DNA of 40,257 nt from Pseudomonadota bacterium (GTDB lineage Bacteria; Pseudomonadota; Alphaproteobacteria; Rhizobiales; Hyphomicrobiaceae). How positions within the stretch are numbered: the first letter of the stretch is position 1; every line of letters begins with the position of its first letter. The notes under the pieces were generated by a model. It was not told the DNA's origin. It did no database searches and worked only from the letters and a program-made list of their open reading frames with translations. This document shows positions 4,266 through 39,009 of the stretch, piece after piece. The stretch is from contig CAUJKI010000020.1 of assembly GCA_963205015.1 (NCBI GenBank), forward strand, positions 1 to 40,257, given 5' to 3'. The translations under genes and the position numbers were made by a program.

Positions 4266-4285
4266 CATCGGAAAATTATCCGATG
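4266..4285 (+). promoter_or_regulatory. Inverted repeat directly upstream of the glcD-like start
   Basis: CATCGGA-AAATTA-TCCGATG perfect 7-bp arms, 11 bp before the ATG at 4297. Confidence 0.4.
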
Positions 4286-4296
4286 ACGAGGATACG

Positions 4297-5733: not shown

Positions 5734-5745
5734 GGTGACGGGAGT

Positions 5746-6939: not shown

Positions 6940-6956
6940 GGCGAGGGCGGACTGGT

Positions 6957-8264: not shown

Positions 8265-8291
8265 GTTCGGACAAGCGACCGCTCTGACATC

Positions 8292-9332: not shown

Positions 9333-10327
9333 AGCGGATTCCAGCACGCGAACAGATGGCCGTTCCGCGTGCGGTCGTCGCCGCCAAGCGGAGGGCGTTC
9401 GTCGCACCGTTCGGTCCGACGTGAGCAGCGCGGTGCGAAGGCGCAGCCCCCGGTTCCGTCGGAGGGAGCGGGTGGCTGCCCAGCGATTGACTCGAGCCGA
9501 TGAGCGATCGGACCGACGATCTTGGGCACGGAGGCGAGGAGGGCGTGCGTATAAGGATGACGCCCATCGCGATAGAGGTTCTTGGCCGCCGCTGTCTCGA
9601 CGATGCGGCCGGCATACATCACGTTGACCCAGTCGGCGTAGCGCGCCACGACGCCGAGATCGTGCGTGATGAGAAGCAGCGCCCCGCCCAACCCGCGGGT
9701 AAGGTCAGTGAGAAGCGCCAAAATCTGCGCCTGTACGGTGACGTCGAGTGCTGTCGTCGGCTCGTCCGCGATGATGAGTCTTGGCTCGCAGGAGATCGCG
9801 ATAGCCACCATGACGCGCTGGCGCATACCCCCACTGAGCTGGTGAGGATAGGCCTCGGCCTTGGTCTCTGCATCAGGGATGCGGACCTTCTTGAGCAGGT
9901 TGATCGCCTGCGCTTTGGCAGCGCTCCAGGACAGCCGGCGATGACGCACCAGCGGCTCGGCGATCTGGCGCCAGATGCGCAGGCTTGGGTTCAGCGCTGT
10001 CATCGGCTCCTGGAAAACGATGCCGACCTCGTTGCCTCGGATGTCCCTGATCTGTTTCGGTGACTGCGTCTGCATATCACGGCCGGAGAGGCGTATTTCG
10101 CCGGCCGTGATCTTGATCGGTGGCATTGGCAGTAGATGGGTGAGCGACATCGCCGTGATGCTCTTGCCCGCGCCGCTTTCGCCTACGAGCGCCACGACCT
10201 GGCCGGAATAGGCTCGGAACGAAACGTCTGCAACAGCGACCAACTCCGTCTTGCCTGACCAGATGCCCATGCAGAGCCCGCGCACATCCAGTATCGGGGG
10301 CCCCGACTTTTCCAAACTTCCGGGCAT
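9329..10327 (-). CDS. Oligopeptide/dipeptide-type ABC transporter ATP-binding protein (DppD/OppD-like)
   Basis: 332 aa; GESGAGKSITAMSL, LSGGMRQRVMVAIAI, IIADEPTTALDVTVQAQIL, CAFAPRCSRRTERC. Confidence 0.92.
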   Translation of the reverse strand: MPGSLEKSGPPILDVRGLCMGIWSGKTELVAVADVSFRAYSGQVVALVGESGAGKSITAMSLTHLLPMPPIKITAGEIRLSGRDMQTQSPKQIRDIRGNEVGIVFQEPMTALNPSLRIWRQIAEPLVRHRRLSWSAAKAQAINLLKKVRIPDAETKAEAYPHQLSGGMRQRVMVAIAISCEPRLIIADEPTTALDVTVQAQILALLTDLTRGLGGALLLITHDLGVVARYADWVNVMYAGRIVETAAAKNLYRDGRHPYTHALLASVPKIVGPIAHRLESIAGQPPAPSDGTGGCAFAPRCSRRTERCDERPPLGGDDRTRNGHLFACWNPL

Positions 10328-10330
10328 CGA

Positions 10331-12028
10331 TCAGAAGCCCATCGACTTCTTTAGATCCTGATCGATCCAAGCGCGCGCCCAGATCGGCGCATCACGCCGA
10401 GCGGAGACCGAAATCTCGCCATAATAGTTTTTGACCCACGGCCACCATACCGTGAACGAGCGCGGCCTGGGCAGAAACAGGAATGGCGCTCGCGCGGTCA
10501 TCTCATTGGTGAGCGCGGCGACGGCCTTCTTGACCTTGTCCGGGTCCCTCTCCTGCTGTATGGCGTCGAGCGCCGCATCGACCTTCGGGTCGTTGACGCG
10601 GGCAGTATTCCAGACGGACGAGGAGCGGAACAGTTTCTCGACTGAAGCGGTCGGATTGCTCATACCTGCGAGATGCCAATAGCCGGGGCCGTGCTTGCCG
10701 GATGTCATCAGACTGAGGAACGCCCCATACTCCTTTGGCTCGATGATCATCTTTACACCGATTGCCGACAGATATCCGGCTACAATCTGTGCCTTCTTCA
10801 ATTGGTCAGCGAAGGTCGGAACTTGAGCCTTGAACTCGAAACCATTCGCAAGACCCGCTTCGGCTAGGAGTTTCTTGGCCTTGGCCGGATTGTATTGGAG
10901 AACCTCCCGTGCCTCCTCCGACATCTTTTCGGCCGGCGTGAAATAGCCTTCCCAAGTTTCATCCAATGGCAGGTGTGGGAAATCAGCGTGGCCGCCATAG
11001 ATCTGCTTCGCGATGGCGGCCCGGTCGACCGCGAGATTCAAGGCGAGACGTACCTTCGGGTTGTCGAAGGGTGGTGCATCGACCCGCATTGCCAGCGCCT
11101 CACCCGCATAGTCGGGGTGTTCGACGACTTTGATTTTATCTCGGATCGGTGCCAGCGATTTGAGCTCGTCCCAGCTAATATTCGTCATGACATCGATCTT
11201 GCCAGTGCGGAAGGCGGCTAGGCGTGTCTGTGAATCCGCGATCGTCCGCATCACAAGCTTATCGACGAAGGGAATCTTGTACGGTTTGCCGTCGATTTTC
11301 TCGCGGTCCCAGTACTCCTTGTTAGCCTGATAATCCCCGAAGGCCCCGGCCTCATACCGCGTCAGCCGGAAGGGACCTGTGCCGCAGGCATTCTGCCAGT
11401 TGCCAGCGCCGCCGTTGGGAGCCTCCGTAATCTCTTTGGGATAGATGCCGGCGTAGTAGCCGTAGCCGAGACGGTATTTCCACTCCGAGTTGTACTCCTT
11501 TAGGAAGAAGGTCACTTGGTGCGGTCCCGTCTCCTCGGCCCTGTCGATGAAGGAGAAATAGACTTTGTTCGCCTTCGGACTAGCGATGAGACGGTTATAC
11601 GCGAACACGACATCCTTGGCGGTAAAGTCGCGCGCTTCCATGATGCCTTTGCAGGCCTGCCATTTCACGTTCTTGCGCAGGTTGACAACGATTGAGAGCG
11701 GTTTGTCGACGACCTCCCAGCTCTCTGCGAGTTCGCCGCGCAGCACGTCGTCGGAGAGCCAGGCCTCGCTGAAAAAGTTGTTCTTTCCGCCGCCACGTAC
11801 GCCCTTGCTTAGGTCGCCCACCATCAGCTGCTCCATATAGGGCCCCGCATCAATCGACACCTTCCAGTTCCAGTCGGCGGGATCCCACGACAACGCCGAA
11901 ATCCCGGGGGAGTAAGGAGAGATGGTCAGCGTGCCACCGTATTTCGGCTCCTGTGCGCTCACGGCTTGGGTCGCAATTATAGCCCCGAGCGCGGCTGCCG
12001 CCATTGTTCCGAGATGTCCGCGTGCCAT
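10331..12028 (-). CDS. ABC transporter substrate-binding protein, family 5 (peptide/nickel/opine class)
   Basis: 565 aa with signal peptide (MAAAALGAIIATQAVSAQEP); LRKNVKWQ, DFTAKDVVFAYNR, GTGPFRLTRYEAG, NPKVRLALNLAVDRAAIAKQIYGG. Confidence 0.92.
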   Translation of the reverse strand: MARGHLGTMAAAALGAIIATQAVSAQEPKYGGTLTISPYSPGISALSWDPADWNWKVSIDAGPYMEQLMVGDLSKGVRGGGKNNFFSEAWLSDDVLRGELAESWEVVDKPLSIVVNLRKNVKWQACKGIMEARDFTAKDVVFAYNRLIASPKANKVYFSFIDRAEETGPHQVTFFLKEYNSEWKYRLGYGYYAGIYPKEITEAPNGGAGNWQNACGTGPFRLTRYEAGAFGDYQANKEYWDREKIDGKPYKIPFVDKLVMRTIADSQTRLAAFRTGKIDVMTNISWDELKSLAPIRDKIKVVEHPDYAGEALAMRVDAPPFDNPKVRLALNLAVDRAAIAKQIYGGHADFPHLPLDETWEGYFTPAEKMSEEAREVLQYNPAKAKKLLAEAGLANGFEFKAQVPTFADQLKKAQIVAGYLSAIGVKMIIEPKEYGAFLSLMTSGKHGPGYWHLAGMSNPTASVEKLFRSSSVWNTARVNDPKVDAALDAIQQERDPDKVKKAVAALTNEMTARAPFLFLPRPRSFTVWWPWVKNYYGEISVSARRDAPIWARAWIDQDLKKSMGF

Positions 12029-12061
12029 TCCTTGTTCCTCCCTAATGTTATTGTTGTTCGC

Positions 12062-12964
12062 TCAATTGCGGACTATTCCGCGCGGATCGAGAAGATCGCG
12101 GAGAGAGTCTCCGAAGATGTTCACGCAAAAAACGATCAGAGTTATCGCGAGGCCTGGGGCGGCGACCATCCAGACGTTCTCGAACATGTAGGGGCGGGCA
12201 TCGCTCAGCATACGGCCCCACGCGGGTGCCGGCGGCGGCACGCCAAGACCAAGGAAGCTGAGACTCGATTCGACCAGGATCACGCCGCCGAGCCGCGTGG
12301 TGTAGAGCACGATGAGGGGCGCGGCGATCGTTGGCAGGATGTGCCGGAGAATGATGTGCCCGTTACCGGCGCCGAAGGAATGGCCCGCCTGCACGTAGAG
12401 CTGCTCGCGCGCCGACAGTACCGCGCCCCGTACGATGCGCGAACCGGCGACGCCGTAGAGGATGCCGAGGAGGGCGATGATTTGCACGATGCCGGGGCCG
12501 AGAACCGCGACGCCCGCGATCAGCACGATCAGGTCGGGAAAGCTCTGCCAAGTATCGACGAACCGCTGAACCAGGGCGTCGAGACGTCCGCCGAAATACC
12601 CGGACAGAACTCCGAGCGTGACCGATATGGCGAGCGATAGCAGCGCGGCGGTGATACAGACGATAACGGAAGTACGGGCTCCGTAGATGACCCGACTGAG
12701 GATGTCGCGACCGAGTTCGTCTGTCCCTAGTGGGTGGGACCAGGACGGCCCCTGCATCAGCGATGTAAGGTCGATCGCGTCGAAGTCGTACGGTGCGAGC
12801 CAGGGTGCCAGGAGTGCGCAGAGCACGATCGCGGCGAGAAGGCCGGCGCAAACCGTTCCGAGAATGTCCTGTTTAAAAAGGCGACTGAAGAAAGTCCGTA
12901 CGGGCGCTGCCCAGGCGCCTCGGTCGGGACCTGCGTCGGTCTTCAGGGTCGAATTGATAGCCAT
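12062..12964 (-). CDS. ABC transporter permease (DppC-like)
   Basis: 300 aa; HPLGTDELGRDILSRVIYGARTS, ESSLSFLGLGVPPPAPAWGRMLSD. Confidence 0.92.
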   Translation of the reverse strand: MAINSTLKTDAGPDRGAWAAPVRTFFSRLFKQDILGTVCAGLLAAIVLCALLAPWLAPYDFDAIDLTSLMQGPSWSHPLGTDELGRDILSRVIYGARTSVIVCITAALLSLAISVTLGVLSGYFGGRLDALVQRFVDTWQSFPDLIVLIAGVAVLGPGIVQIIALLGILYGVAGSRIVRGAVLSAREQLYVQAGHSFGAGNGHIILRHILPTIAAPLIVLYTTRLGGVILVESSLSFLGLGVPPPAPAWGRMLSDARPYMFENVWMVAAPGLAITLIVFCVNIFGDSLRDLLDPRGIVRN

Positions 12965-12967
12965 GCG

Positions 12968-13936
12968 TCAGCCCTGACGAATCTTGGGATCTAGGAGGGC
13001 GTAGCTGATGTCGACGAGCAGGTTGATCGTCATTACGCCGACGCCCACGAGGAGAAAGATGCCGGTAATGACCGGATAGTCCCGCTGCGACACCGCCATC
13101 AGGAGTAGTTGGCCCATACCGGAGATCACGAAGATCTGCTCAATTACGACCGCGCCACCGATCAGCAGGGGCAACTGCAAGCCGACGATGGTTATGACCG
13201 GCAGAAGCGCGTTTTTGAGGACATGGCGCAAAACGACCGTCCGCTCGTCGAGACCCTTGCTCCAGGCCGTGCGGACATAATCCTGGCGCATGACTTCGAG
13301 GACCATCGTACGGGTCATCCTCATCGTCACTCCGGATAAGGCGATGCCGAGGACGATCGCGGGCGGCACCATCTGGCGGAGGCTAAGGAGGGGATCGTCG
13401 GTCAGCCCAACATATTGCGTGGTCGGCGCGATCCCCCAGAGAATCGCTGGCAGGATCACCACCAACGTCCCGAGCCAAAAAGGCGGCACGGACAGGGCTG
13501 TGATGGCAAAGACACGGCCGAGATAATCGACCGGCTTGTTTTGCCGGATCGCCGAGATGATGCCGACCGGCAGCGCGATCAAGAGGGCGAAGATCATGGC
13601 CAGCACCCCCAAATAGAGGGTAGTCGGTATGCGTTCAGCGACGAGGCTAGTGACGCTCTCTCCCGTCCAAAGCGAGCGACCGAAATCTCCGTGGAGCACA
13701 ATTGAGCTGATCCAGTGCCAATATTGTACAAGGACCGGCTGATCGAGCCCGAGTGCCTTGATAAGATCTTCGCGGGTCTTGACGCTCGCCGAGATGTCGT
13801 TCTGGGACATCATCATGTCGATCGTGTCTCCCGGTATCAGGCGAATGGCCGAGAACACAATAACGCTCGCTAGCAGGAAGGTCGGCACGAGCGCGACAAG
13901 GCGACGAACTAGATATCTCAGCATGACGCGGTCCAT
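12968..13936 (-). CDS. ABC transporter permease (DppB-like)
   Basis: 322 aa; MLRYLVRRLVALVPTFLLASVIVFSAIRLIPGD, VRTAWSKGLDERTVVLRHVLKNALLPVITIVGLQLPLLIGGAVVIEQIF. Confidence 0.93.
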   Translation of the reverse strand: MDRVMLRYLVRRLVALVPTFLLASVIVFSAIRLIPGDTIDMMMSQNDISASVKTREDLIKALGLDQPVLVQYWHWISSIVLHGDFGRSLWTGESVTSLVAERIPTTLYLGVLAMIFALLIALPVGIISAIRQNKPVDYLGRVFAITALSVPPFWLGTLVVILPAILWGIAPTTQYVGLTDDPLLSLRQMVPPAIVLGIALSGVTMRMTRTMVLEVMRQDYVRTAWSKGLDERTVVLRHVLKNALLPVITIVGLQLPLLIGGAVVIEQIFVISGMGQLLLMAVSQRDYPVITGIFLLVGVGVMTINLLVDISYALLDPKIRQG

Positions 13937-14087
13937 TGGAGGGCGCGCTCACCATGCAGATTGGCTTGGTCCGACAGCACCACGCTCTTGTCCCTCTCTA
14001 TGTGAAAAAGGTCGCTGAACGCCCGCTCATCAAAAAATGAGGTGAGTTCTCAATTTGCAGTTCAGTTGCAATCTGGCACATCCAATT

Positions 14088-14098
14088 TGATCATACCA
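14088..14098. promoter_or_regulatory. Putative GntR/FadR-type half-palindrome (TGATCATACCA)
   Basis: Single mismatch to TGGTnnnACCA; embedded in CCAATTTGATCATACC, matching 13/16 with CCAATTTGGTCCAACC at 14205. Confidence 0.35.
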
Positions 14099-14193
14099 TT
14101 CAAGCGTGCTCTTGGCGGCGGTGTCAAGGCGAATGTTGTCGCGGTGGCGTAGCTCCGGGTGCTTATCAATTCCGAGAAATCATTGACTGACCT

Positions 14194-14221
14194 AATTGGA
14201 TATGCCAATTTGGTCCAACCA
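14194..14221. promoter_or_regulatory. Putative composite operator: AATTGG-ATATG-CCAATT followed by TGGTCCAACCA
   Basis: Perfect 6-bp inverted repeat (14194-14210) adjoining TGGT-CCA-ACCA (14211-14221) in the divergent intergenic region between the ABC operon and the FAD oxidase. Confidence 0.45.
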
Positions 14222-14296
14222 GATCGCGATGTTTCCCGAAACGCATGCGCACCTGGATGATTTAATTGACGTCGAAATCTCGAAGGAGGACGCGCC

Positions 14297-15949
14297 GTGG
14301 CGAAGGAAAAGAGCGGCTACTATGGTCAGCGAAGGAAATTCTGGTCGTGGGGATATGAAGGTGAAGATAATTCCCAAGAAGAAATCCGTACCATGCGAGA
14401 TCGCGTGGAGCAGCGGCTTGGAATTAAAGACATCGAAGTTCTGTCAGACCCGACTCTAGATGAGATTGAACTTTATCCGTCGCGCATAAAGATCCCACGA
14501 ACGCTGGAGGATTTCTGCACCTCGGAAAAATGGGACAGAATTGTTCATACGTATGGTAAGGGTTTCAAGGACATGACCCTTATCTACCGGCGCGATTTTA
14601 AGAAGGCTCCGGACGTCGTGGCCTATCCGCGCGACGAAGAAGACATCGCCGCTATCTTCGACTGGTGCGGGGAAAATGGTTATGCATGCATACCGTATGG
14701 CGGCGGATCGAGCGTCACCGGCGGCTTCTGGGGTCCCGAGCGCGACGCCTTTCCCGGCGTCGTCGTAATCGACTTGGGCAACCTCAACAAGATTCTCGAA
14801 GTCGACCCCGTGTCACGCTGCGCGCGGATCCAGGCCGGCATTCTCGGTCCGGCTCTGGAAGAGCAACTGAAGCCGCATGGCCTCACCCTGCGCCATATTC
14901 CGCAATCGTGGGAATTCTCATCGCTGGGCGGTTGGATCGCGACTCGCTCGTCCGGTCACTATGCGACCCATCTCACGCATATTGACGACATGGTAGAAAG
15001 CCTGCGCGTGGTCACGCCGGCGGGAACGATCCAGAACCGCCGGCTGCCAGGCTCGGGTGCGGGACCCAATCCGGATCGGCTGTTCATCGGGTCTGAGGGC
15101 TCGCTGGGCATCATCACCGATGCATGGATGCGTTTACAGGGGCGTGTGAAATTCCGTGCGAATGCATCGATCTCATTCAAGACGTTCTATCAAGGTGCCA
15201 AGGCCGTCCGTCAGATCACCCAAGCAGGACTATTCCCGGCGAACTGTCGTTATCTGGACGAGCAGGACGCCAAATTCTACGGCGCTGGAGACGGCACCGA
15301 TTCGGTCTTGTTGCTGGGCTTCGAATCCGCCGACCATCCGATGGACGCGTGGCTGGAGCGCAGCCTCGAAATCTGCAAGGACTTCGGTGGCGTCGTGAAG
15401 CAACGCGCGGGAACTGCGGACAACGCGCTGGAGACCAGCCGTAGCGGGCCGCAGGGTAGCTGGCGGCACCAGTTCAGGTATCTGCCCCGGCTGATGCATA
15501 CGCGCGCCGCGATGGGAATCGTCAGCTTCACGTTCGAAACTGCCTACACTTGGGATAAGTTCGAAGAAGTCGATACCGAGATCATGCGACGCATGCGGAA
15601 AGCCCAGAAGGAAAATCTTGGCGGCGGCATCGTCTGCCGTAGGTTCTCCTTCCTGTATCCGGACGGCCCGGCCCCTTACTATTCGGTCATGGCTCCTTCG
15701 ACACATGCCAACAGCCTTGAAGCCTATACGATGCTCCACGACGTGGCGTCAGATGCGCTACTTGAACTCGGCGCCACCATCACGCACCATCATGCTGTCG
15801 GCAAATCGTTCCGTCCTTGGTACGACAAGGAAGTCGATCCGTTGTTCCGCCGTGTGCTGGCAGCCGCCAAGACCGAACTGGACCCGAAGTGGATGTTGAA
15901 TCCTGGGCTTATCGTTGACAAGCCAGCAGGGCTAAAGATCGTCGGATAG
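14297..15949 (+). CDS. FAD-binding oxidase of the VAO/PCMH family, alkyldihydroxyacetonephosphate synthase (AGPS)-like
   Basis: 550 aa GTG start; PYGGGSSVTGGFWGPE, SSLGGWIATRSSGHYATHLTHIDDMV, GSEGSLGIITDAWMRLQ, ITHHHAVGKSFRPWYDKE typical of AGPS-like oxidases. Confidence 0.85.
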   Translation: MAKEKSGYYGQRRKFWSWGYEGEDNSQEEIRTMRDRVEQRLGIKDIEVLSDPTLDEIELYPSRIKIPRTLEDFCTSEKWDRIVHTYGKGFKDMTLIYRRDFKKAPDVVAYPRDEEDIAAIFDWCGENGYACIPYGGGSSVTGGFWGPERDAFPGVVVIDLGNLNKILEVDPVSRCARIQAGILGPALEEQLKPHGLTLRHIPQSWEFSSLGGWIATRSSGHYATHLTHIDDMVESLRVVTPAGTIQNRRLPGSGAGPNPDRLFIGSEGSLGIITDAWMRLQGRVKFRANASISFKTFYQGAKAVRQITQAGLFPANCRYLDEQDAKFYGAGDGTDSVLLLGFESADHPMDAWLERSLEICKDFGGVVKQRAGTADNALETSRSGPQGSWRHQFRYLPRLMHTRAAMGIVSFTFETAYTWDKFEEVDTEIMRRMRKAQKENLGGGIVCRRFSFLYPDGPAPYYSVMAPSTHANSLEAYTMLHDVASDALLELGATITHHHAVGKSFRPWYDKEVDPLFRRVLAAAKTELDPKWMLNPGLIVDKPAGLKIVG

Positions 15950-15962
15950 GGATTTTCCAGCT

Positions 15963-16643
15963 ATGATTGATCTATACTTCTGGCCAACCCCCAACGGGTA
16001 TAAAGCAGCTATAATGCTGGCAGAGTTGGACTTGGAGTATCGTGTAATTCCGGTTGATATAACGGCAGGTCAGCAGTTTCATCCGGAATTCCTGAAGATC
16101 AATCCAAACAACAAAGTGCCGGCCATCGTGGATCACGATGGCCCGCACAACAAGCCTTATGCTGTTTTTGAATCCGCGGTCGTTCTGATCTATCTTGCAG
16201 AAAAGTTCGGTAAATTCCTTTCTCAGGATCCGGAGAAACGCTACGATACGTTAAAGTGGCTTGTCTTTCAGAATACGACGATGGGTCCAATGCTGGGCCA
16301 AGCACACCACTTCATGGTGTATGCGACCGAGAAGATCGATTACGCCATCGAACGTTATGATCGGGAAGTTGGCCGAATATACAACATTCTCGAGAAGCGC
16401 CTTGGCGAATCTGAATATCTCGCCGGCGAGTATTCTATCGCTGACATCAGCACATTCCCTTGGGTTCGCACGCGAAAGCTGCATCGACGCGAGTTGTCGG
16501 AGTACCCGAACATTGATCGATGGTACCAGGCGATCAAAGACCGTCCGGGGGTTCGGGCGGGCATAAACACGTTGTCCGACAGCAAACAATGGGAAGCGAA
16601 GCCGGGCACCGAGGCCTGGAAGAATATGTTTGGAAAGAACTGA
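15963..16643 (+). CDS. Glutathione S-transferase (YfcG/YghU-like)
   Basis: 226 aa; MIDLYFWPTPNGYKAAIMLAELDLEY, FLKINPNNKVPAIVDHDGP, FESAVVLIYLAEKFGKFL, GEYSIADISTFPWV. Confidence 0.88.
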   Translation: MIDLYFWPTPNGYKAAIMLAELDLEYRVIPVDITAGQQFHPEFLKINPNNKVPAIVDHDGPHNKPYAVFESAVVLIYLAEKFGKFLSQDPEKRYDTLKWLVFQNTTMGPMLGQAHHFMVYATEKIDYAIERYDREVGRIYNILEKRLGESEYLAGEYSIADISTFPWVRTRKLHRRELSEYPNIDRWYQAIKDRPGVRAGINTLSDSKQWEAKPGTEAWKNMFGKN

Positions 16644-16770
16644 AGTTCGTAACAATCAAAAGGGAGCGTCGACTCAAATGGCTAACTGGGTAAAGGCCGC
16701 TCTTACGAAAGATGGGTCGGATGATAGCATTCAGCAGCTCAATATCGACGGATGTAAAGTTGCGCTCTAG

Positions 16771-17336
16771 CGGGATGCCTATCCATGGCAGAAGTATCCC
16801 CAGGCTGAGTCTATCAACGCATTCGCGCGGGTATCGGTGCGGCAATGAGCCAAGATCCGACCAAAAGCGAGCGTTGAAGCGAAGCGGCTCGCTGGACTTC
16901 GCGAAGCGGCTGCGGCGATGAAGCTGAGTTATTGGGCCGATCAGATCGATATTCAGATCGAGGTCGTGCAAGGTCTTACAGCTTTTGCTGAAGGCGAGCG
17001 CGATGAGGGTATTACATGCTGGGCCACGCGGCGGATCGCGAAGATGCGAGTGCTAAAAGTGTCGTCACGCCAGGACCAATTGTTCCGGCGCGAGAGATAT
17101 TGGCGATGATACTTGAGCGTGACGGTAAACCGGCTGACGCTCTCGCTGAATTCGAAAAAGTGCTTCAGCACCAACCTAATCGATACCGCGCGATCGCGGG
17201 AGCGGCAGAATGTGCCAAGCGAGCAAGCAATGAGCAGAAAGCAGTCTTCTACTCGAAGCAACTGCTCGAGCTGGCCAAGCATGCGGATAGCCCACGACCT
17301 GAGATCGCTGAGGCAAAGCGCACGCTCGGGATGTAA
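16771..17336 (+). pseudogene. Decayed TPR-repeat protein (C-terminal part), frameshifted
   Basis: Fragments in successive frames form one TPR-protein C-terminus: RDAYPWQKYPQAESINAFAR / AKRLAGLREAAAAMKLSYWADQIDIQIEVVQGLTAFAEGERDEGI / MLGHAADREDASAKSVVTPGPIVPAREILAMILERDGKPADALAEFEKVLQHQPNRYRAIAGAAECA. Confidence 0.7.
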
Positions 17337-17369
17337 GGCAATAGTTTCTGGTGCCGGTTTCTGGATGCC

Positions 17370-17814
17370 TTGGAAAAGCAAACCGAGGAGAATATCAGAC
17401 GCGAACTGACAGGTTTCGAGCCCACGTCTTGGCTGATGTATCCAAAGGTGTTCAGCGACTATGCTTCGGCTCAGACGGAATATGGTCCGGTCAGGCCTGC
17501 TAACGCCAGTCTATTTCTATGGTATGAAGTCGAGGACGAGATCCTCGTCGATATCGAACGCAGCAAGATGCTTGTCATTCGCTGTCTGTCCATCGGTGAC
17601 GTCGATGAGAAGGGCATGGCGCCAATGCCGGCGTCGTGTCCACGGTGGCGGTTGCGACTGGACGATCGGTCAATTCCGGAGATGTGCTGCTATCGATCTA
17701 GGTCGTGAAAATGGAGACGGTACTATACGCCGATTGCGATGGACCGTCGCCGAAGTGCTGGTGCGCGCCAGCGATCAGATCGACGCAAAGGGTCTGTTGA
17801 TTGTTTACGGCTGA
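17370..17814 (+). pseudogene. pyc: Pyruvate carboxylase C-terminal fragment, multiply disrupted
   Basis: WLMYPKVFSDYASAQTEYGPVR, (frame shift) TPVYFYGM, ILVDIERSKMLVIRCLSIGDVDEKGMA, VVSTVAVATGRSVNSGDVLLSI*VVKMETVLYADCDG, (frame shift) TVAEVLVRASDQIDAKGLLIVYG*; KMET is the biotin attachment motif. Confidence 0.8.
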
Positions 17815-17985
17815 TTTGGGCAGTTAAGTAGATGAGAGGTGTGCCCGCAAAAGTATGACTCAAATCGGAGAGATGATAGCTCGCAGACAGGATGAAGGTT
17901 GTAGGACGGAAGAACATAGGTAACACATATCTGCGGAATTGCCGAGTTATGCACGACATAGGGACGGCAGAAAGGCAGGACAGGA

Positions 17986-18891
17986 TTGGATCTGCGTCAC
18001 CTTCGCTACATTATCGCAAGCGCTCGGAATGGCAGCTTCAGCGCCGCCGCACAAGAACTCAATGTAAGGCAGCCGATCGTCAGCAAGCGCGTGAAAGAAG
18101 TGGAAGACGAGTTTGGCGTCTGTCTTTTCGACCGTTCAAAGTCAGGGGCCAGCCTCACGGCCGCTGGCGAAGCATTCGTCGTCATCGCGCAGCGCATCAT
18201 TGAGGATACGGAGCGACTGGGTGAGCAGACGAAAGCGAGCGGTGCTGGACGCGTCGGCCGCATCGTCGTCGGTTTTTATATGTCATTGTCAACCGGCTCA
18301 CTACGAGCAGCGTTGCACAATTTCAGAAAATGCTATCGCGAGATCGATATCGAACCATTCGAGGCGCCGTACACCGAGCTTGCAGCCGGCCTTCATGCTG
18401 GCAGGATTGACGTTGCCATTCTGTTAGGAGACCCTGGTAGATGCGACATTTTTAACTCCCTTGCGATGCGATCTGAGCTTCTTGTCGTCGCGTTGCCGAA
18501 AGACCACCCTCTCGCGGATCGGCCATTTGTCTACTGGCCGGAACTGAAAGGTGAGCGGTTCCTGGTCAGTCACCACGACCCGGGACCGGATATTCGCATT
18601 ATTCTCGAACGCTATTTGGCTGCTCCGTCAGATCACCCCGAGATTCTGATGAGGTCTTTGAGTCGCGAGAGTATACTAAGCGAGGTCGGCAGCGGGGAGG
18701 GTATTAGCCTGCAATGCGAGACGGCCGCCGGACTGACCGATCTCGGCATTGTTTTCAAACCGGTGCATGATGGCAACGGCTTGACCCGTCTGGGCTACAT
18801 GGCGTGTTGGAAACCGACCAACACCAATCCGGTTGTGAAGACGTTTATCGATTTCATTGACTCAAGCACTGATTCGTTCGAGTCGCATTAG
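17986..18891 (+). CDS. LysR-family transcriptional regulator
   Basis: 301 aa TTG start; MDLRHLRYIIASARNGSFSAAAQELNVRQPIVSKRVKEVEDEFGVCLFDRSKSGASLTAAGEAF HTH plus substrate-binding domain. Confidence 0.92.
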   Translation: MDLRHLRYIIASARNGSFSAAAQELNVRQPIVSKRVKEVEDEFGVCLFDRSKSGASLTAAGEAFVVIAQRIIEDTERLGEQTKASGAGRVGRIVVGFYMSLSTGSLRAALHNFRKCYREIDIEPFEAPYTELAAGLHAGRIDVAILLGDPGRCDIFNSLAMRSELLVVALPKDHPLADRPFVYWPELKGERFLVSHHDPGPDIRIILERYLAAPSDHPEILMRSLSRESILSEVGSGEGISLQCETAAGLTDLGIVFKPVHDGNGLTRLGYMACWKPTNTNPVVKTFIDFIDSSTDSFESH

Positions 18892-28876: not shown

Positions 28877-28993
28877 CGCACGATCCCTGATAGCCGTCCG
28901 TGACCGGCACCCTCCAACCCGGTATTAACGGTTAAGCTGGTATTGACTGTGATCGACAATCGACGTCATCGACAGCACGATGTGGGAACGGTC

Positions 28994-29773
28994 ATGGCCG
29001 AGACGCAAATTGAATGGACTGACGCCACCTGGAATCCAGTTGCTGGCTGCTCCATCGTCAGCGCGGGCTGCACGAATTGCTATGCCATGGAAATGGCGAG
29101 ACGACTTCAGGCGATGAATGTTCCGAAATATAAAGGACTCACGCGACGCAGCGGAAAACGAACCGTTTGGAACGGCGTGGTCCGTGAAGACAAGGCCGCC
29201 TTGGACATTCCGCTGCGCTGGAAGAAGCCGCGAAAAATCTTCGTTAACTCGATGTCTGACCTGTTTCATGATCGGGTGACGGACGCCTTCATCCTGAGAG
29301 TCTGGGCCGTCATGCGTGCCACGCCCCACCATCACTATCAGATCCTTACCAAGCGTCCGGAGCGGATGGGGGCGCTGGTTCGCTCCAAGATCGGCGAAGT
29401 TCTGCCGAACGTATGGCTCGGCACCAGTGTCGAGAGCGCCAACGTCGCGGGTCGCATCGATCATTTGCGCACCATCCCGGCTGCAATCCGTTTCATCTCA
29501 TTTGAGCCGCTGATCGGTCCGGTAGGGTCAGTCGATCTTCGCGACATCCATTGGGCCATCGTCGGCGGAGAAAGCGGAAGATCGGCTCGCCCGATCCGTG
29601 AAGATTGGATCGATGAAATCTTCGATCAGTGTGCGATGCACAACACCGCGTTCTTCTTTAAGCAGTGGGGGACATGGGGGAAAGACAACAAGCGTCGTTC
29701 CAAAAAGGCCAATGGGCGCGTATATCGCGATCAGGTCTGGGACGAAATGCCGAAGGCTTCGCTCGCGCTCTGA
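28994..29773 (+). CDS. Phage Gp37/Gp68 family (DUF5131) three-Cys-motif protein
   Basis: MAETQIEWTDATWNPVAGCSIVSAGCTNCYAMEMARRL, MSDLFHDRV, YQILTKRPERM, WAIVGGESGRSARPI, FFFKQWGTWG. Confidence 0.9.
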   Translation: MAETQIEWTDATWNPVAGCSIVSAGCTNCYAMEMARRLQAMNVPKYKGLTRRSGKRTVWNGVVREDKAALDIPLRWKKPRKIFVNSMSDLFHDRVTDAFILRVWAVMRATPHHHYQILTKRPERMGALVRSKIGEVLPNVWLGTSVESANVAGRIDHLRTIPAAIRFISFEPLIGPVGSVDLRDIHWAIVGGESGRSARPIREDWIDEIFDQCAMHNTAFFFKQWGTWGKDNKRRSKKANGRVYRDQVWDEMPKASLAL

Positions 29774-29812
29774 GAATGACGCCTCTGGATAGCAGGATTC
29801 ATTCGGAGGCGA

Positions 29813-31078
29813 ATGTCGAAAAAGCCGTATTCATGGGTCGCAGGCGCGGTTCTTGAGGAGCACTCAAGACGCAAGCACAAGGTCATCGCCGAATACGTCG
29901 CGCGATATCTGACCGTGCGCTGCCAGCTTCCTCAACAGTCCCGGTTTCGTCTTGCCATTGTCGATGGTTTTGCAGGCGGCGGCCAATACAAGTGCGGCAG
30001 TCCCGGGTCTCCGCTGATCTTTATAAACGAGCTTCGTGTCGCGACGGAGCAATTCAACATCAAGCGTCAGGCCGAGGGGATGTCGCCGCTCGACATCGAA
30101 TGCCTGCTCATCCTGAACGACTTCGACAAAGAGACTGTCGAGCTGCTGAAAACGAATGCCGCTTCGCTCATCGCCGAAATCAAGGAGAACGTGCCGAAGC
30201 TTCACCTTCGCGTCGAGTATCGGAATGAGAAGTTCGACGAACTCTATCCCGAGGTGAAGCAACTGCTCGAGCGCGGCAGCTATCACAACGTCCTCTTCAA
30301 TCTGGATCAATGCGGAACAGGCAGCGTCGAAATCAACACGATCGGCGACATCGTCGCGTCGTTCACGTCGGTTGAAATCTTCTACACATTCGGCATCCAG
30401 ACGTTGCTGACGTTCCTGCATCAGACGGACCGGGGCGCGCTGGCCAGGCAGCTTGCGCCGTTTGGCGTCAGTCCGGATGATCTATCGCAACTCGATGGTT
30501 TGATGACCAAGGACGCTTGGCTTGGCGCAGCGGAACGCATCGTGTTCGAGTCGTTTCGGCGCTGCGCGAACTACGTCAGTCCATTTTCCATCCACAATCC
30601 GGACGGATGGCGTTATTGGCTTATCCACTTCGCAAATTCGGTTCGTGCGCGTCAGGAATACAACAATATCCTGCATCAAAACAGCAGCGCCCAGGCACAT
30701 TTTGGCCGGTCCGGTTTGCACATGCTGTCTTACGACCCGAGTGAAGCCGACAGCATGCTCTACATGTTCGATGCGGCGGGAAGGGCGGAAGCAAAAAAGC
30801 AGCTTCACGATGATATTCCGCGGTTCATCACAAATTACGGCGATGCAATTCCGGTCGGTGAGTTTTACGCCAGCATCTACAACGCGACCCCGGCTCACAT
30901 GCACGACATCAACTCAGCGATCATCGAGAATCCGGACCTCGAGGTTATCACCGAACAAGGCGGCGGGGAGCGCCGCAAAGCCAACATGATCAAGACCAGC
31001 GACATCCTGCGCTTGAAACAGCAGCGCAGTTTCTTTCCGTTTTTCTTTGAAAATCAAAGCAGGGTAGCGAAGAAATGA
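29813..31078 (+). CDS. tcmP: Three-Cys-motif partner protein TcmP
   Basis: 421 aa; HSRRKHKVIAEYVARYL, VDGFAGGGQYKCGSPGSPLIFINEL; immediately downstream of the Gp37/Gp68 gene. Confidence 0.88.
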   Translation: MSKKPYSWVAGAVLEEHSRRKHKVIAEYVARYLTVRCQLPQQSRFRLAIVDGFAGGGQYKCGSPGSPLIFINELRVATEQFNIKRQAEGMSPLDIECLLILNDFDKETVELLKTNAASLIAEIKENVPKLHLRVEYRNEKFDELYPEVKQLLERGSYHNVLFNLDQCGTGSVEINTIGDIVASFTSVEIFYTFGIQTLLTFLHQTDRGALARQLAPFGVSPDDLSQLDGLMTKDAWLGAAERIVFESFRRCANYVSPFSIHNPDGWRYWLIHFANSVRARQEYNNILHQNSSAQAHFGRSGLHMLSYDPSEADSMLYMFDAAGRAEAKKQLHDDIPRFITNYGDAIPVGEFYASIYNATPAHMHDINSAIIENPDLEVITEQGGGERRKANMIKTSDILRLKQQRSFFPFFFENQSRVAKK

Positions 31079-31992: not shown

Positions 31993-33054
31993 ATGGCCGC
32001 TGATCGCCCCCGCCGGGTTTTCCTTGATGCGAACGTCGTGATCCGGGCCGGCAAGCCGCCCGGCGGTCCGCTGATCCCGCGGGTCGCTGATCTGGTAGAC
32101 GCCGGCTATATCAAGGTTGTCACGACCGATCTTACAAAAATAGAGATCGCAAAAAACCATGGGGCTAACGATTTCGAGGTCATCGGCGACCTGACCAGGA
32201 GACGAGTCCGCGACCTGGCTGATGAGATTCTCGCCGTTAAACTCCCGGAGATTTCTCCGGTTGAACTGCAGCAAAGACTGATCGAGAAGTATCATGCTGC
32301 GGTGGAGCAGATGTTCAGCTCGCTGCGAGCGGAGACGCTTTCGATCGATAGTGTGAAGCCGTCCGTCGTATTCGACGCATACGCGCGCAGGACCGGCCTG
32401 TTTGGCGACGACGCCAAGAAGGATCAATTTCCAGATGCCTTCATCTTCGAAGCCCTAAAAGCGACTGTCACGAAAAGCGATCCGCTGACGATCGTCTCGG
32501 ACGACAAGGACTTTGCGGCGGTCATCAAGAACGCTGAGCATATCACCGGGCTGAGATCGATCGCGGATCTCTTCGCCAAGCTCGGGCTGACAATCGAAGC
32601 GGCCCCGGACGTCAACGATTTTGTGGATGACAATCGCGATGCGATCGTCGGGGTCGTTCATGAAGAACTCAATCAGTGGGGATTGCAGGTCAGCGATGTT
32701 GACGATGCAGAAATCGACGAAGCGGACGTGGAAAATGTGAACTTTCTCGACTTCAGGACATTTCGGACGATCGGCCCAGGCAAGGAGATTCTCGTCGTCG
32801 GGCGCATCGAGATGGACGTCAAAGTCTCCTACCACCATCCCGATTGGGACACCGCCACTTACGACAGCGAAGACAAGGTACTGCTGCCGCACCACACGGT
32901 GGAAGGCGAGAAGAACATAGATGTAGAAGCCAATTTTAGTATGACCCTGACCGTCGACAAGCACGGCAAGCCGACATCGGTTGCTGAGTTCTCGTTCGAC
33001 GACGATGATTTCGTCTGGGTCGCGATCGGGCCAAACGACTTCGACTACAAATAG
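31993..33054 (+). CDS. PIN-domain protein with uncharacterised C-terminal domain
   Basis: 353 aa; RRVFLDANVVIRAG, TTDLTKIEI, KDQFPDAFIFEAL, PLTIVSDDKDFAAV fit PIN acidic positions; a roughly 150-aa acidic C-terminal extension follows. Confidence 0.8.
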   Translation: MAADRPRRVFLDANVVIRAGKPPGGPLIPRVADLVDAGYIKVVTTDLTKIEIAKNHGANDFEVIGDLTRRRVRDLADEILAVKLPEISPVELQQRLIEKYHAAVEQMFSSLRAETLSIDSVKPSVVFDAYARRTGLFGDDAKKDQFPDAFIFEALKATVTKSDPLTIVSDDKDFAAVIKNAEHITGLRSIADLFAKLGLTIEAAPDVNDFVDDNRDAIVGVVHEELNQWGLQVSDVDDAEIDEADVENVNFLDFRTFRTIGPGKEILVVGRIEMDVKVSYHHPDWDTATYDSEDKVLLPHHTVEGEKNIDVEANFSMTLTVDKHGKPTSVAEFSFDDDDFVWVAIGPNDFDYK

Positions 33055-33885: not shown

Positions 33886-35628
33886 GTGATAATCGATTCG
33901 ATCTATCCCACCGTAGCTACGGACGATTTTGCGCGTCGCTTCTCGCAGCGCGGCGGAAATCTCATGTGGCTGCTCGGGGCTGGCGCTTCGGCGGCCGCCG
34001 GCATTCCGACGGCGTGGGACATGATTTGGGAATTCAAGCAGCAACTTTACGTCAGCCAGCGCCGCGTTTCTCCGAAACAGGTCGCCGACCTCGCCAATCC
34101 GGCCGTCCGACGTGAACTGCAATCGTTCATCAACGACCTTGGCAGCTTACCCGCGCTCGGTTCGCCCGACGAGTACGCGGCGCTCTTCGAGTCCGTCTAT
34201 CCAAGCGAGGCAGACCGTCGCACGTACATCGCTGCAAAGATCAGCGGCGCGAAGCCCTCCTACGGGCACATTGCGTTGGCGACACTGATGAAAGGTGCGC
34301 GTTGTCGTTTAGTCTGGACCAGCAACTTCGACCCTCTAGTCGCCGACGGCTGCGCGAAGGTTTATGGCGGGACCGGCCAGTTGACCACTGTGGCGATAGA
34401 GACCGGCAGTCTCGGACGGAACGCCATCGACGAAGGGCGCTGGCCCGTCGAGGTCAAGCTTCATGGCGACTTCCGATCGCGCCGGCTCAAGAATACCGGA
34501 GATGAGCTGCGCGAACAGGATGCGAAACTCAGAACCCTGCTGATCGATAGCTGCAGCCGGTGGGGACTTGTCGTGGCCGGCTACAGCGGTCGCGATGAGT
34601 CGGTCATGGACACGCTCGAAGCGGCGCTAGAACGTGATGCCTCCTTTCCCGCCGGTCTCTTCTGGCTCCATCGCGGCGAGGATCCGCCCTTGCTGCGCGT
34701 CCAACGGCTTCTTGCCGCCGCCGCACGTAAGGAAATCGACTGCGGTCTCGTGCCGATAGAGAACTTCGATGAAACGTTGCGCGATCTTATGCGGCTCGTG
34801 CCGGACCTAGACACGACAGTGTTGGATGAGATCGCAACCGAACGGCGGGTTTGGTCCCCAGCCCCGCGCCCGACCGGGAATCGGGGCTACCCGGTCGTCC
34901 GTCTCAACGCGCTCGAACTGACAGGGATGCCGAGCGTGTGCCGCCGCGCCGTCTGCGACGCCGGCGGCGTGGCGGAAATCAAGTCGGCAATCGAAGCGTC
35001 GGGCCTGCCGGTCATTGGCACCCGTTCGAAAGCAGGCGTGCTGGCCTTCGGTGCTGACGCCGATATCAGAGCAGTCCTTTCCGCATATGAGATCGAAAGC
35101 TTCGATCTGCATTCAATTGAAACCCGGCGGCTGCGTTACGATAGTCACGAACGGGGCCTTCTCCGCGAAGCACTGACCCGAGCTCTCACCCGCGAACATC
35201 GGATGATCGCTGCCCGTCGCAGAGGCGCCGACCTGTTGACGCCGACCTCCGTTGATGACGAAAAATGGGCGCCGCTGAGGAAGCTGACCGGAAGTCTAGG
35301 TGGATTGGTGCCGAAGCAACCCGAACTAAAATGGAAAGAAGGCGTGGGGATCAGGCTGGATTGGGTGGATGAGCGGCTTTGGCTTCTGCTCGAGCCGCGC
35401 ACCGTATTCGAAGGACTTACAAGGGAGAACAGGGCCGCCGCCACCGATTTCGCGCGCGAACGGATTGTGAGACGCTACAATCCTGCGCTCAATGCCTTGC
35501 TCGAGTTTTGGTCGATGCTGTTCGCGTCCCCGCAGCGCGACCTTCCGGCGCTTGGAATCAGCACTGGTGTGAATGCGGCCTTCAGGCTGGGCGATGTCAC
35601 AGCTTTCTCGGGGAGAGCCCGAGCATGA
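33886..35628 (+). CDS. SIR2-APAZ effector subunit of a short prokaryotic Argonaute system (SPARSA type)
   Basis: 580 aa; SIR2 motifs LLGAGASAAAGIP, WTSNFDPL, VKLHGD, then an APAZ-like C-terminal half; ATGA overlap with a downstream short pAgo. Confidence 0.88.
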   Translation: MIIDSIYPTVATDDFARRFSQRGGNLMWLLGAGASAAAGIPTAWDMIWEFKQQLYVSQRRVSPKQVADLANPAVRRELQSFINDLGSLPALGSPDEYAALFESVYPSEADRRTYIAAKISGAKPSYGHIALATLMKGARCRLVWTSNFDPLVADGCAKVYGGTGQLTTVAIETGSLGRNAIDEGRWPVEVKLHGDFRSRRLKNTGDELREQDAKLRTLLIDSCSRWGLVVAGYSGRDESVMDTLEAALERDASFPAGLFWLHRGEDPPLLRVQRLLAAAARKEIDCGLVPIENFDETLRDLMRLVPDLDTTVLDEIATERRVWSPAPRPTGNRGYPVVRLNALELTGMPSVCRRAVCDAGGVAEIKSAIEASGLPVIGTRSKAGVLAFGADADIRAVLSAYEIESFDLHSIETRRLRYDSHERGLLREALTRALTREHRMIAARRRGADLLTPTSVDDEKWAPLRKLTGSLGGLVPKQPELKWKEGVGIRLDWVDERLWLLLEPRTVFEGLTRENRAAATDFARERIVRRYNPALNALLEFWSMLFASPQRDLPALGISTGVNAAFRLGDVTAFSGRARA

Positions 35629-37043
35629 GCAGCGAGATATCGCCTCATTTGTTTTTTCCCGAAGCCAAGCTCGCGTTTCATCCAGACCGCGCGTCGGACG
35701 TGGATCTCCATCCTTTGCGTGGACTGCTGCGGTTCGGGCCCTATTCATCCGGTCTTGTTCCGGATCCCATCCGGATCGCGACGATCGCACCGGCACGGCA
35801 GGGAAACCGACTCTACGGCTTCATGAAGGAACTGGCGTTCCAGTACAAGCCGACGGAGCGCAAGGACTACCTGCCTCCCTGGCCCGGTTTCCGCAAAGCG
35901 TTCAATCTCGACATGCGGGGCGCGGTCAAGGATTGCCATATAGAGCTGGACGACCGGCTCGATGGCGAAATGAAGGACTCAGTCACCCCCCATGTCGTGC
36001 TGGCGGACCGCTTGCTTCGCGCGATCCGATCGTTGGAGGCTCGCCGCGACGCGTTCGACATTGTCTTCATCTACATCCCGCAAAGCTGGGCAGCCGGGTT
36101 CACGGGAGCAGACGGCGACGACTTCGATCTCCATGACCACCTGAAGGCCGCTACCGCAGCGCGACGCATTCCAATCCAACTCGTCCGTGAAGACCGCGCG
36201 CTCGCCTATCCGGACCGTGCGAGCGTCATGTGGCGGATCGGCCTAGCGATTTACGCGAAGGCTGGCGGCATTCCCTGGAAACTCGCAGATTCGGATCCTG
36301 AGGCCGCCTACATCGGTCTCTCTTATGCGCTGCGTCCGACCGAGTCAGACCGGCCACGCTTTGTCACCTGCTGTAGCCAAGTGTTCGATGCGGAAGGGGC
36401 GGGTCTTGAGTTCGTCGCCTACGATGCCCATGAAATCGATGTCCAGCGGGACAATCCGTTCATGTCCCGGACGGAGATGTTCCGCGTGATGGGCCGATCG
36501 CTAGATCTCTACCGACGTCGGCACTCGGGTCGCTCTCCCCGGAGAGTGACGGTACACAAGACGACAGAATTCAAGAAGGACGAGATCGACGGCTGCATGG
36601 AAGCGCTGCATCTGTGCGAAGCGGTCGATCTCGTGCAGGTCGTGGAGGACGTCGGCTGGAGAGGTGTTCGCATCGATCGCGACCGCCAAAGCGGCAAAGG
36701 GAAGCCAACGGGTTATCCGGTCGATCGTGGTACCCTGATCCCGCTCGGAGACCGCGAGTGTCTGCTGTGGATGCATGGCGATGTAAAAGGCGTCGCGGAG
36801 CGCTCGTATTACCAAGGCGGCCGCAGCACGCCTCGTCCGATTCGACTGGTCCGTCATGCAGGGCACGGCTCGTGGAACGAAACCGCCCGGTCAGCTCTCG
36901 CGCTCGCGAAGATGGATTGGAACAACGACGCACTGTACGACATGCTGCCGGTGACCATGGCATACGCAAAAACGCTCGCGCGCGTTGTCAAACGAATGGA
37001 CGGATTGGGCTCCGCTCCCTATCAATTTCGTTTCTTCATGTGA
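35625..37043 (+). CDS. Short prokaryotic Argonaute (MID-PIWI)
   Basis: 472 aa from ATG 35625; DAFDIVFIYIPQSWAAGF, GLSYALRPTE, PRRVTVHKTTEFKKDEIDGCMEAL, PVTMAYAKTLARVVKRM are typical of short pAgos. Confidence 0.88.
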   Translation: MSSEISPHLFFPEAKLAFHPDRASDVDLHPLRGLLRFGPYSSGLVPDPIRIATIAPARQGNRLYGFMKELAFQYKPTERKDYLPPWPGFRKAFNLDMRGAVKDCHIELDDRLDGEMKDSVTPHVVLADRLLRAIRSLEARRDAFDIVFIYIPQSWAAGFTGADGDDFDLHDHLKAATAARRIPIQLVREDRALAYPDRASVMWRIGLAIYAKAGGIPWKLADSDPEAAYIGLSYALRPTESDRPRFVTCCSQVFDAEGAGLEFVAYDAHEIDVQRDNPFMSRTEMFRVMGRSLDLYRRRHSGRSPRRVTVHKTTEFKKDEIDGCMEALHLCEAVDLVQVVEDVGWRGVRIDRDRQSGKGKPTGYPVDRGTLIPLGDRECLLWMHGDVKGVAERSYYQGGRSTPRPIRLVRHAGHGSWNETARSALALAKMDWNNDALYDMLPVTMAYAKTLARVVKRMDGLGSAPYQFRFFM

Positions 37044-37107: not shown

Positions 37108-37560
37108 GTGGATATTTCTGTGACAACATCTCTTGACGGAGAAATTCGCGACGGTCGCCATCATATGCAGGTCCGCGTCTATTTCGAAGATACGGACGCC
37201 GGCCAGATTGTTTATCACGCCAATTTCTTGCGCTTCATGGAACGGGGAAGAACGAATTACCTGCGTCTGCTCGGGACCAATCAGCGGGAGCTACTCAAAG
37301 AAGCGCACGACGATGCGCCAAGCTTCGCCTTCGTTGTCCGTTCAATGACAATCGATTTCCTAAAACCAGCGGCCTTGGACGACTTGCTTGATGTCATCAC
37401 AATCCCCGCAGAGGTCAAGGGCGCATCGATTACCCTGCTGCAGGAATGTCGACGCGGAGACGATCTTTTGGTCGCGGCCCGCGTGCGGGTAGCATTTATC
37501 TCAGGCGGAAGGGCGCAACGGATCCCGAAGGCGCTACGGCTCGCTATGGAAGGAGCGTAG
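37108..37560 (+). CDS. ybgC: YbgC-family acyl-CoA thioesterase (Tol-Pal associated), intact copy
   Basis: QVRVYFEDTDAGQIVYHANFLRFMERGRTNYLRLLG; start uncertain (GTG 37108, GTG 37120 or ATG 37165). Confidence 0.85.
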   Translation: MDISVTTSLDGEIRDGRHHMQVRVYFEDTDAGQIVYHANFLRFMERGRTNYLRLLGTNQRELLKEAHDDAPSFAFVVRSMTIDFLKPAALDDLLDVITIPAEVKGASITLLQECRRGDDLLVAARVRVAFISGGRAQRIPKALRLAMEGA

Positions 37561-37639
37561 AGAATCTACGCTTGTTCACGCTATAGCCCTCCAGCGCCCC
37601 AATGGAATCAAGCCGCTGTGTTGCGATGTTGGCAAGCCA

Positions 37640-38005
37640 GAGTTCTCAGGTCTCGTCTATCACGCGACCTACCTGCGCTGGTGCGAACGGGGCCGCTCGG
37701 ACTATCTGCGCCTTGTCGGCAACGAGCACCGCGCGCTGATCGAGGGCGGGGACGGCGCGGAGCCCTCGGCATTTGTCGTGCGCCGTATGCGGCTCGAATA
37801 TCTGAAACCCGCGCGCATCGACGACGTGCTCGAGGTCGAAACGCGCGTCACCGAGGTCAAGGGTGCAACATTGAGCCTCGCGCAGCGCGTGCTCCGCAAA
37901 GGAATCGCGCTTTTCGAGGCCGAGGTGCTCGTCGTGCTGGTCTCTGTGTCGGGAAAGCCGCAACGCCTGAGCCAGCGCCTGCGCGCTGGCCTCGCTGGCG
38001 GTTGA
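37640..38005 (+). pseudogene. ybgC: N-terminally truncated second YbgC-family thioesterase
   Basis: Frame reads EFSGLVYHATYLRWCERGRSDYLRLVGNEHRALIEGG...SAFVVRRMRLEYLKPARIDDVLEVETRVTEVKGATLSLAQRVL; no in-frame start before SGLVYHA and the EDTD region is missing. Confidence 0.8.
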
Positions 38006-38289: not shown

Positions 38290-39009
38290 ATGAACCCGGC
38301 GGACATCCTCAAGGATAAGATCGTTACGGTCGGTCACGGCAGCGGCACATCGTTCCTCGAGTTGTTCCTGCAGGCGCATGTCGTCGTCCAGATCGTCATG
38401 GTCGGCTTGATGCTGGCGTCCGTATGGTCATGGGCGATCATCATCGAGAAGGTTTTCACCTTCCGTCGTGCACGCCGCGAAGCCGACCGCTTCGAGCAGC
38501 TCTTCTGGTCGGGCCAGAGCCTCGAGGAGCTCTACGCGAGCCTCGCCCGCGACCGGACACAGTCCATGGCGGCGCTGTTCGTTGCGGCCATGCGCGAGTG
38601 GAAGCGCTCGGTCGAAGGCAATATCCGCGCGCTCGGAGGCATCCAGCTTCGCGTCGAGAAGGTGATGGACGTCACCATCAGCCGCGAGATGGAGCGGCTC
38701 GATCGGCGTCTCCTGTTCCTTGCGACGGTCGGCTCGACGGCGCCGTTCATCGGCCTCTTCGGCACGGTCTGGGGCATCATGTCGAGCTTCCAGGCGATCG
38801 CCGCCTCCAAGAATACCAGCCTCGCGGTCGTCGCGCCCGGCATTGCGGAAGCGCTGTTTGCGACGGCGCTGGGCCTCTTGGCCGCAATTCCGGCGGTCAT
38901 GGCCTATAATAAGTTCTCGGCGGATTCGGCACGCCTCGCGCAGCGCTTCGAGGCCTTCGCCGACGAGTTCTCGGCGATCGTCTCGCGCCAGATCGACACG
39001 CGGACCTGA
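38290..39009 (+). CDS. tolQ: Tol-Pal system proton channel subunit TolQ
   Basis: MNPADILKDKIVTVGHGSGTSFLELFLQAHVVVQIVMVGLMLASVWSWAIIIEKVFTFRRARREADRFEQLFWSG; VGSTAPFIGLFGTVWGIMSSFQAI. Confidence 0.95.
   Translation: MNPADILKDKIVTVGHGSGTSFLELFLQAHVVVQIVMVGLMLASVWSWAIIIEKVFTFRRARREADRFEQLFWSGQSLEELYASLARDRTQSMAALFVAAMREWKRSVEGNIRALGGIQLRVEKVMDVTISREMERLDRRLLFLATVGSTAPFIGLFGTVWGIMSSFQAIAASKNTSLAVVAPGIAEALFATALGLLAAIPAVMAYNKFSADSARLAQRFEAFADEFSAIVSRQIDTRT

Follow-up and report, generated by a model that had tools for sequence, protein, structure and literature searches.

Why should a chromosome carry two ybgC frames in tandem, one of them complete and the other without a beginning? The question arises near the right end of the window, the complete 40,257-bp contig C20 of a 687-contig genome (G000). 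At positions 37120–37560 on the forward strand, a full-length ybgC with a GTG start encodes a YbgC-family acyl-CoA thioesterase, which scored 144.2 bits against the thio_ybgC model TIGR02799 (cutoff 141.35) and contains the EDTD motif, thus qualifying as a YbgC thioesterase on both counts. A second frame reads ...CCDVGKPEFSGLVYHATYLRW... and stops at 38003–38005, but lacks the N terminus, EDTD and everything else before F-S-G, with no ATG, GTG or TTG codon between position 37562 and the point at which ybgC homology starts. An intact copy followed by a start-less, truncated one, as described in an earlier note on this DNA, was thereby confirmed. Downstream lie tolQ (38290–39009, forward strand), tolR and tolA; TolQ was 94–97% identical to that of two congeners, in the same gene order, marking this side as chromosomal flank.

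The truncated frame (37643–38005, forward strand) is the 3′ remnant of the native gene, its product being 89–91% identical to the single YbgC of three congeners and 81% identical to that of a fourth. The two YbgCs of the window shared only 47% protein identity and fell in different lineages of the tree, with the full-length copy in a clade that we refer to as cargo; judged by their sequences, the two copies are not a duplication. Copies 98.6–99% identical to the full-length gene were present in four other metagenome-assembled genomes (MAGs). Nucleotide homology between the window and all four congeners started exactly at position 37640. The segment between the two frames (37561–37642, forward strand), which has no homology in the congeners and is conserved at the equivalent position of other elements, constitutes the right end of an element and includes the left arm of its attP (TGGCAAGCCAGAG).

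If DNA bringing its own full-length ybgC had integrated into the native gene, as the earlier note proposed, then relatives without the element should have one intact ybgC, and the missing 5′ half should lie at the element's other end. Each of the four congeners had a single, intact ybgC and no tandem arrangement, with the empty site (taken from L014) ordered ruvB, metallophosphoesterase, ybgC, tolQRA. We sought the left half in the window's own genome using congener DNA from upstream of the break, which matched contig C628 at 5991–8234, overlapping by 8 bp at the break. On this contig, the native 5′ half runs as far as the core, ending ...VYFEDTDF, and then gives way to foreign DNA. Joining the C628 and window flanks by script yielded an uninterrupted native YbgC. 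The genome contained no further ybgC, the third match being a distant protein of 27% identity. Integration into ybgC with an incoming replacement was thus supported by both native halves, the empty sites and a core shared by the two ends.

The first gene inside the element at attL (C628:8211–9917, reverse strand) encodes a 568-amino-acid large serine recombinase (LSR), in which the resolvase N-terminal, Recombinase and zinc-ribbon domains (PF00239, PF07508 and PF13408) all scored above cutoff. The LSR gene ends at attL, where the dinucleotide TT lies at C628:8230; in attR, TT occupies 37643–37644. The two sites have TTCTC in common (37643–37647 in attR), a short core without a long direct repeat, and this agrees with the earlier note's expectation of a core repeated at the far end. 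Reconstructed from both ends, attP reads TGGCAAGCCAGAG-TT-CTCTGACCCGCCA, a near-palindrome centred on TT, in which the arms match at 10 of 13 positions, a value reached by 0.02% of window positions. Because in other genomes the element-side sequence is conserved up to TT and is followed by the host's own ybgC, the most likely crossover point is TT, with which the Phe codon of EDTD-F-S-G begins, although we infer the exact dinucleotide from these comparisons of attL, attR and empty sites. Among the 44 assemblies searched, none contained a circular or tandem attP junction.

A relative of the element could be examined whole. In Hyphomicrobiaceae bacterium SB17 (G405, WBUN01000007.1), a single contig contained the entire element, with 66,938 bp between crossovers, flanked by that genome's own ybgC halves, which when joined encode an intact, different YbgC. 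This element was collinear with window positions 1–37848 at 98.8–99.2% identity and with C628 from position 7807 onward at 96%. The element side of the window contig thus spans 1–37642 (forward strand), with the remainder on C628, including the LSR at attL; ~13.2 kb of the G405 element was absent from both C20 and C628 and is unplaced in the window genome. Mis-binning of MAG contigs cannot have created the pattern, given that the ybgC halves at the junctions are host-specific. That hosts from other families carry a near-identical element points to recent transfer.

By content, the element appears to be a trb-type integrative and conjugative element (ICE). Pfam and NCBIfam models matched TrbB, TrbC, a TrbE-like protein, TrbJ, TrbL, TrbF, TrbG and TrbI between 19043 and 28449 (forward strand); TrbB, TrbC, TrbJ, TrbL, TrbF, TrbG and TrbI together indicate a mating-pair formation system, and the integrase and two chromosomal att junctions are those of an ICE. 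A lytic transglycosylase is also encoded. At the cut end of C628, a relaxase matched positions 1–386 of the 654-position RlxS model and missed the full-length cutoff since the contig breaks off there. A coupling protein (TraG/VirD4) was not among the genes examined and may sit in the ~13 kb that is unplaced. Adjacent to the replacement ybgC is a SPARSA pair (33886–37043, forward strand; PADLOC Aga_SIR2-PNTD1-PNTD2 and pAgo_I), comprising a SIR2-type subunit (33886–35628) and a short prokaryotic Argonaute (~35622–37043). The proteins encoded at 28943–31078, a DUF5131 protein and a three-Cys-motif-partner-like protein, matched the PADLOC candidate defence models PDC-M30/M41; with a PIN_12 protein (31993–33054) and SPARSA they form a defence cluster beside attR. 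Metabolic cargo occupies 176–18891, from the contig start to trb: an AMP-ligase, an aldehyde dehydrogenase, three glycolate-oxidase-like subunits, a dipeptide ABC transporter, another FAD oxidase, a GST and a LysR regulator.

The junction proved to be widespread. Scanning GTDB genomes with the cargo YbgC identified relatives at 80–99% identity in Bradyrhizobium, Afipia, Tardiphaga, Hyphomicrobiaceae and others. In many genomes with the cargo, a 3′ half of the native ybgC, truncated at the identical residue, followed ~85–105 bp downstream, and most genomes with both contained LSR orthologues at 78–100% identity. The cargo clade and this LSR occurred together in dozens of genomes, those of Bradyrhizobium and Afipia among them, and the arrangement recurs across dozens of genomes of Hyphomicrobiales; ~20 LSR orthologues abutted a host ybgC 5′ half cut after EDTDF. 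More than 20 genomes share the tandem junction, each with a 3′ half specific to its host, and so chance cannot account for it. Elements whose LSR was only 41–46% identical also carried a cargo ybgC. In a sample of 398 genomes of the order searched with the LSR, there was one close relative, in Bradyrhizobium, and the other matches were distant LSRs.

Several arrangements depart from the simple one. Four loci or genomes (G531, G577, G486 and L066) had two cargo ybgC copies 5–7 kb apart ahead of one native remnant, as stacked elements. In G547, the right end after the cargo ybgC met a native ybgC 5′ half in inverted orientation (L184), and the LSR frame was fused to the native 3′ half in a 710-amino-acid frame (G547:C1:8612374–8614398), which resembles an insertion or inversion of opposite orientation. 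Cargo-type ybgC (85%) was also present on two Bradyrhizobium plasmids (NZ_CP064694.1:176863–177297 and NZ_CP082165.1:92503–92854), one copy being partial.

Is a split native gene regularly accompanied by a full-length copy? Genomes found through the cargo are biased in this respect, a bias that was removed for LSR-positive genomes by finding a second sample through the LSR. We searched 249 Bradyrhizobium genomes with the LSR, of which 41 matched, and scored ybgC in the 23 matches that were new relative to the cargo scan and in 20 LSR-negative genomes. A full-length element-borne ybgC accompanied the split native gene in 21 of 22 genomes (18 with main-type copies and 3 with a divergent type at 71–74%), and the remaining one, G556, had cargo pieces at contig ends. 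None of the 20 genomes with an intact native gene had a full-length element copy, and one genome of the scored sample was in neither state. The exact one-sided p value was ~4e-11 by hand calculation, which overstates the evidence because the genomes are related. In the cargo-chosen sample, G404 and G423 had the cargo together with a second intact copy.

The cargo gene differs from native ybgC at the very site of crossover. After EDTD, main-type cargo proteins continue A-G-Q, S-G-Q or S-G-K, the first residue being encoded by GCY or TCY in place of TTY (55 sequences fetched, 40 distinct). The TTY codon for Phe occupied this position in all 59 of the other full-length sequences (54 distinct) and in none of the 55 main-type copies; the 59 included three element copies of a second lineage (G461, G603 and G643), which read FSQ or FSK rather than FSG. 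Lacking the TT core, the main cargo type should escape cutting by the same recombinase. In a tree of 99 proteins, main-type cargo and Tardiphaga copies formed one group (support 100/98), which the second element lineage joined, with the Bradyrhizobium native proteins separate. Because the Tardiphaga copies also lack the core, its absence from the cargo may have been inherited rather than selected. Tardiphaga genomes had only the element-type ybgC, at a different locus in the case of the L085 copy, and may have kept the replacement after losing the element; using the adjacent metallophosphoesterase gene as a guide to the former ybgC site in Tardiphaga yielded nothing, in a set that had no positive control.

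The cargo pN/pS of 0.17 reflects purifying selection. The native 3′ remnants showed no sign of faster decay (pN/pS 0.12, versus 0.11 for intact genes), which is consistent with recent insertion. Possible traces of elements encountering one another's cargo were also seen. At L157 (G426:C143, 1439–1530), an LSR orthologue (78%) lay beside a split cargo-type ybgC 5′ end in which the core is TC rather than TT, as if the cargo gene of a different element had served this LSR as its insertion site; a matching 3′ half of the split gene was not found. At L182 (G568, 1504–2385), the sequence behind a main-type cargo was the 3′ half not of a native gene but of an older cargo of the FSQ type, which reads as successive elements at one site.

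Two readings of the junction dispense with site-specific integration. Two ybgC frames 80 bp apart do at first sight resemble the outcome of a gene having been duplicated locally and then truncated, or of a faulty assembly, with no mobile element involved. To this we give next to no credence, given that the copies are 47% identical and belong to different clades, that the native 5′ half lies beside the LSR on another contig and that the junction is repeated in many independent assemblies; the whole element on one contig between the ybgC halves of G405 led us to reject it. Homologous exchange between similar 5′ ends of native and cargo ybgC, rather than LSR action at TT, would be the other way to build such a junction, and a published Bradyrhizobium attY, a 78-bp stretch in the ybgC 5′ end, is a sequence that could recombine in this manner. 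Exchange of this kind would leave the join within the cargo, however, whereas host sequence resumes at TT ~85 bp past the cargo stop, left ends break at the identical TT in ~20 genomes, and TT lies at the centre of the near-palindromic reconstructed attP. We rejected homologous exchange on these three grounds and consider it very improbable.

A more serious alternative accepts the integration but denies the cargo any compensating role, regarding it as a passenger that was acquired once from an old host and kept by its nearness to the insertion site. In E. coli, ybgC is dispensable under laboratory conditions, which lends this reading some general plausibility, and remnants without visible decay imply that the time available for selection may have been short. 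Against it stand the near-strict complementarity of split native and full-length cargo genes, the presence of a cargo ybgC in elements with LSRs as divergent as 41–46% identity, the purifying selection on the cargo and the Tardiphaga genomes in which this type of ybgC is the only one. In Bradyrhizobium sp. LHD-71 (G427), moreover, only a C-terminal relic of the LSR is left and a frameshift divides the native 3′ half between two frames, and yet the cargo is intact. On balance, we regard a mere passenger as improbable, if less so than either of the readings above.

We therefore think it very likely, from the comparative sequence evidence, that the window holds the right end of an LSR-integrated conjugative element that split the host ybgC and brought a whole replacement with it. 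A trb-type ICE would be inserted by its LSR at TT within the conserved GAY-TTY-TCN-GG codons (D-F-S-G) of the host gene, separating EDTDF from SGxVYH. Its attP would carry no patch to mend the target; instead, a whole replacement ybgC would lie just inside attR, usually in the same orientation, and the host would keep its YbgC thioesterase after integration. With Ala or Ser (GCY/TCY) where the native gene has Phe (TTY), the replacement would lack the crossover core and offer the same recombinase no target, and excision would restore the host ybgC exactly. Read-through could also reach the genes behind the remnant, here tolQRA. Because the native ybgC of Bradyrhizobium sp. BTAi1 is not beside tolQ, however, it is probably ybgC itself, rather than the Tol-Pal function proposed in the earlier note, that the replacement protects.

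The LSR reading frame may add a further layer. In the integrated form, the LSR ends ...GGSE-KSVSSK before its stop, this tail coming from the opposite strand of host ybgC. In the circular form, it would instead read ...GGSE-NSGLPTSQHSGLIPLGRWRAIA before its stop, with the predicted alternative tail encoded at 37576–37644 on the reverse strand, opposite the segment between cargo ybgC and attR. Across other elements the circular tail was nearly always 22 or 24 amino acids, its length changes were in frame, and its end was conserved in 33 of 35 tails. Third codon positions within the tail were more variable than the others (0.31 versus 0.18, permutation p = 0.016; pN/pS 0.55), in DNA of which part is also under attP constraints. 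These patterns are suggestive and lend moderate support to the idea that the LSR frame crosses attP, such that integration would swap the C terminus of the recombinase. A tentative extension, which we think could be right but would not favour, combines an arms race with an integrase switch at the ybgC site: recoded targets that cannot be cut, later elements adapting to them (as at L157 and in G568), and an attP-dependent LSR tail, of 22–24 amino acids in the circle and short and host-encoded after integration, that possibly controls direction or stability.

If this model of integration with gene replacement holds, an element could land in a conserved protein gene without harming its host by swapping in a recoded gene that is not a target. 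The Tardiphaga genomes with only the element-type ybgC suggest that a passing element can even exchange a core gene permanently. The elements also provide ~20 natural att sites, with intact recombinases, for a serine integrase whose target is a conserved gene of Hyphomicrobiales.

How does this element compare with known systems? In the consulted parts of the reports by Weisberg et al. (2022; PMC9239051, PMC9174649), the bipartite tRNA-Val symICE of Bradyrhizobium has a small B element that integrates near ybgC at attBY (IntY), and symbiosis island B of B. japonicum is described in part of a further account (PMC11218460) as bordered by an integrase gene and ybgC. The window element resembles symICE B, as seen in those parts, in having ybgC as its target and an integrase and ybgC at its border, and its own insertion in ybgC with the integrase at the border matches that feature of such elements. 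By eye, the attY query published for symICE B, in the part consulted, reads as a cargo-type ybgC 5′ end such as that beside the L157 LSR. The same parts describe insertion near ybgC, whereas the window element is inside the gene; its host is outside Bradyrhizobium, unlike that of symICE B, and its G405 relative is a single-part element flanked at both ends rather than bipartite. The consulted parts of the symICE B and island B accounts made no mention of a serine recombinase, whole-gene replacement, the crossover point or a recoded core, and we found no report of this LSR, of whole-gene replacement or of a recoded core in the parts of the literature consulted. The present model would offer a mechanism for the known but unexplained ybgC end of these symbiosis ICEs.

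Other elements that integrate into genes spare their targets differently. According to the part of PMC10111431 consulted, attP usually carries replacement sequence for the target gene, with exceptions, and at dusA the 5′ end of the gene is replaced on integration (PMC4482086). Target function would be kept in the window element as in these systems, but their attP holds the missing gene end, whereas that of the window element holds none, a whole divergent gene lying beside attP with both native halves left as fragments. As in regulated gene integrity (PMC10111431), insertion divides the host gene, which would be restored by precise excision; unlike in that case, the replacement means that the function would not be switched off by the split. 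Integration-dependent immunity in mycobacteriophage BPs (PMC4557955) is similar to the predicted tail swap in that attP lies inside an element gene whose C terminus is altered by integration, although in BPs that gene encodes the repressor and here it would be the serine integrase itself. ybgC is thus already known as the attachment site of Bradyrhizobium symICE B, and a trb-type ICE and a serine integrase are ordinary parts; what is unusual is the carriage, as a fixed module, of a complete and divergent replacement gene that lacks the core, and, possibly, an integrase that exchanges its own tail.
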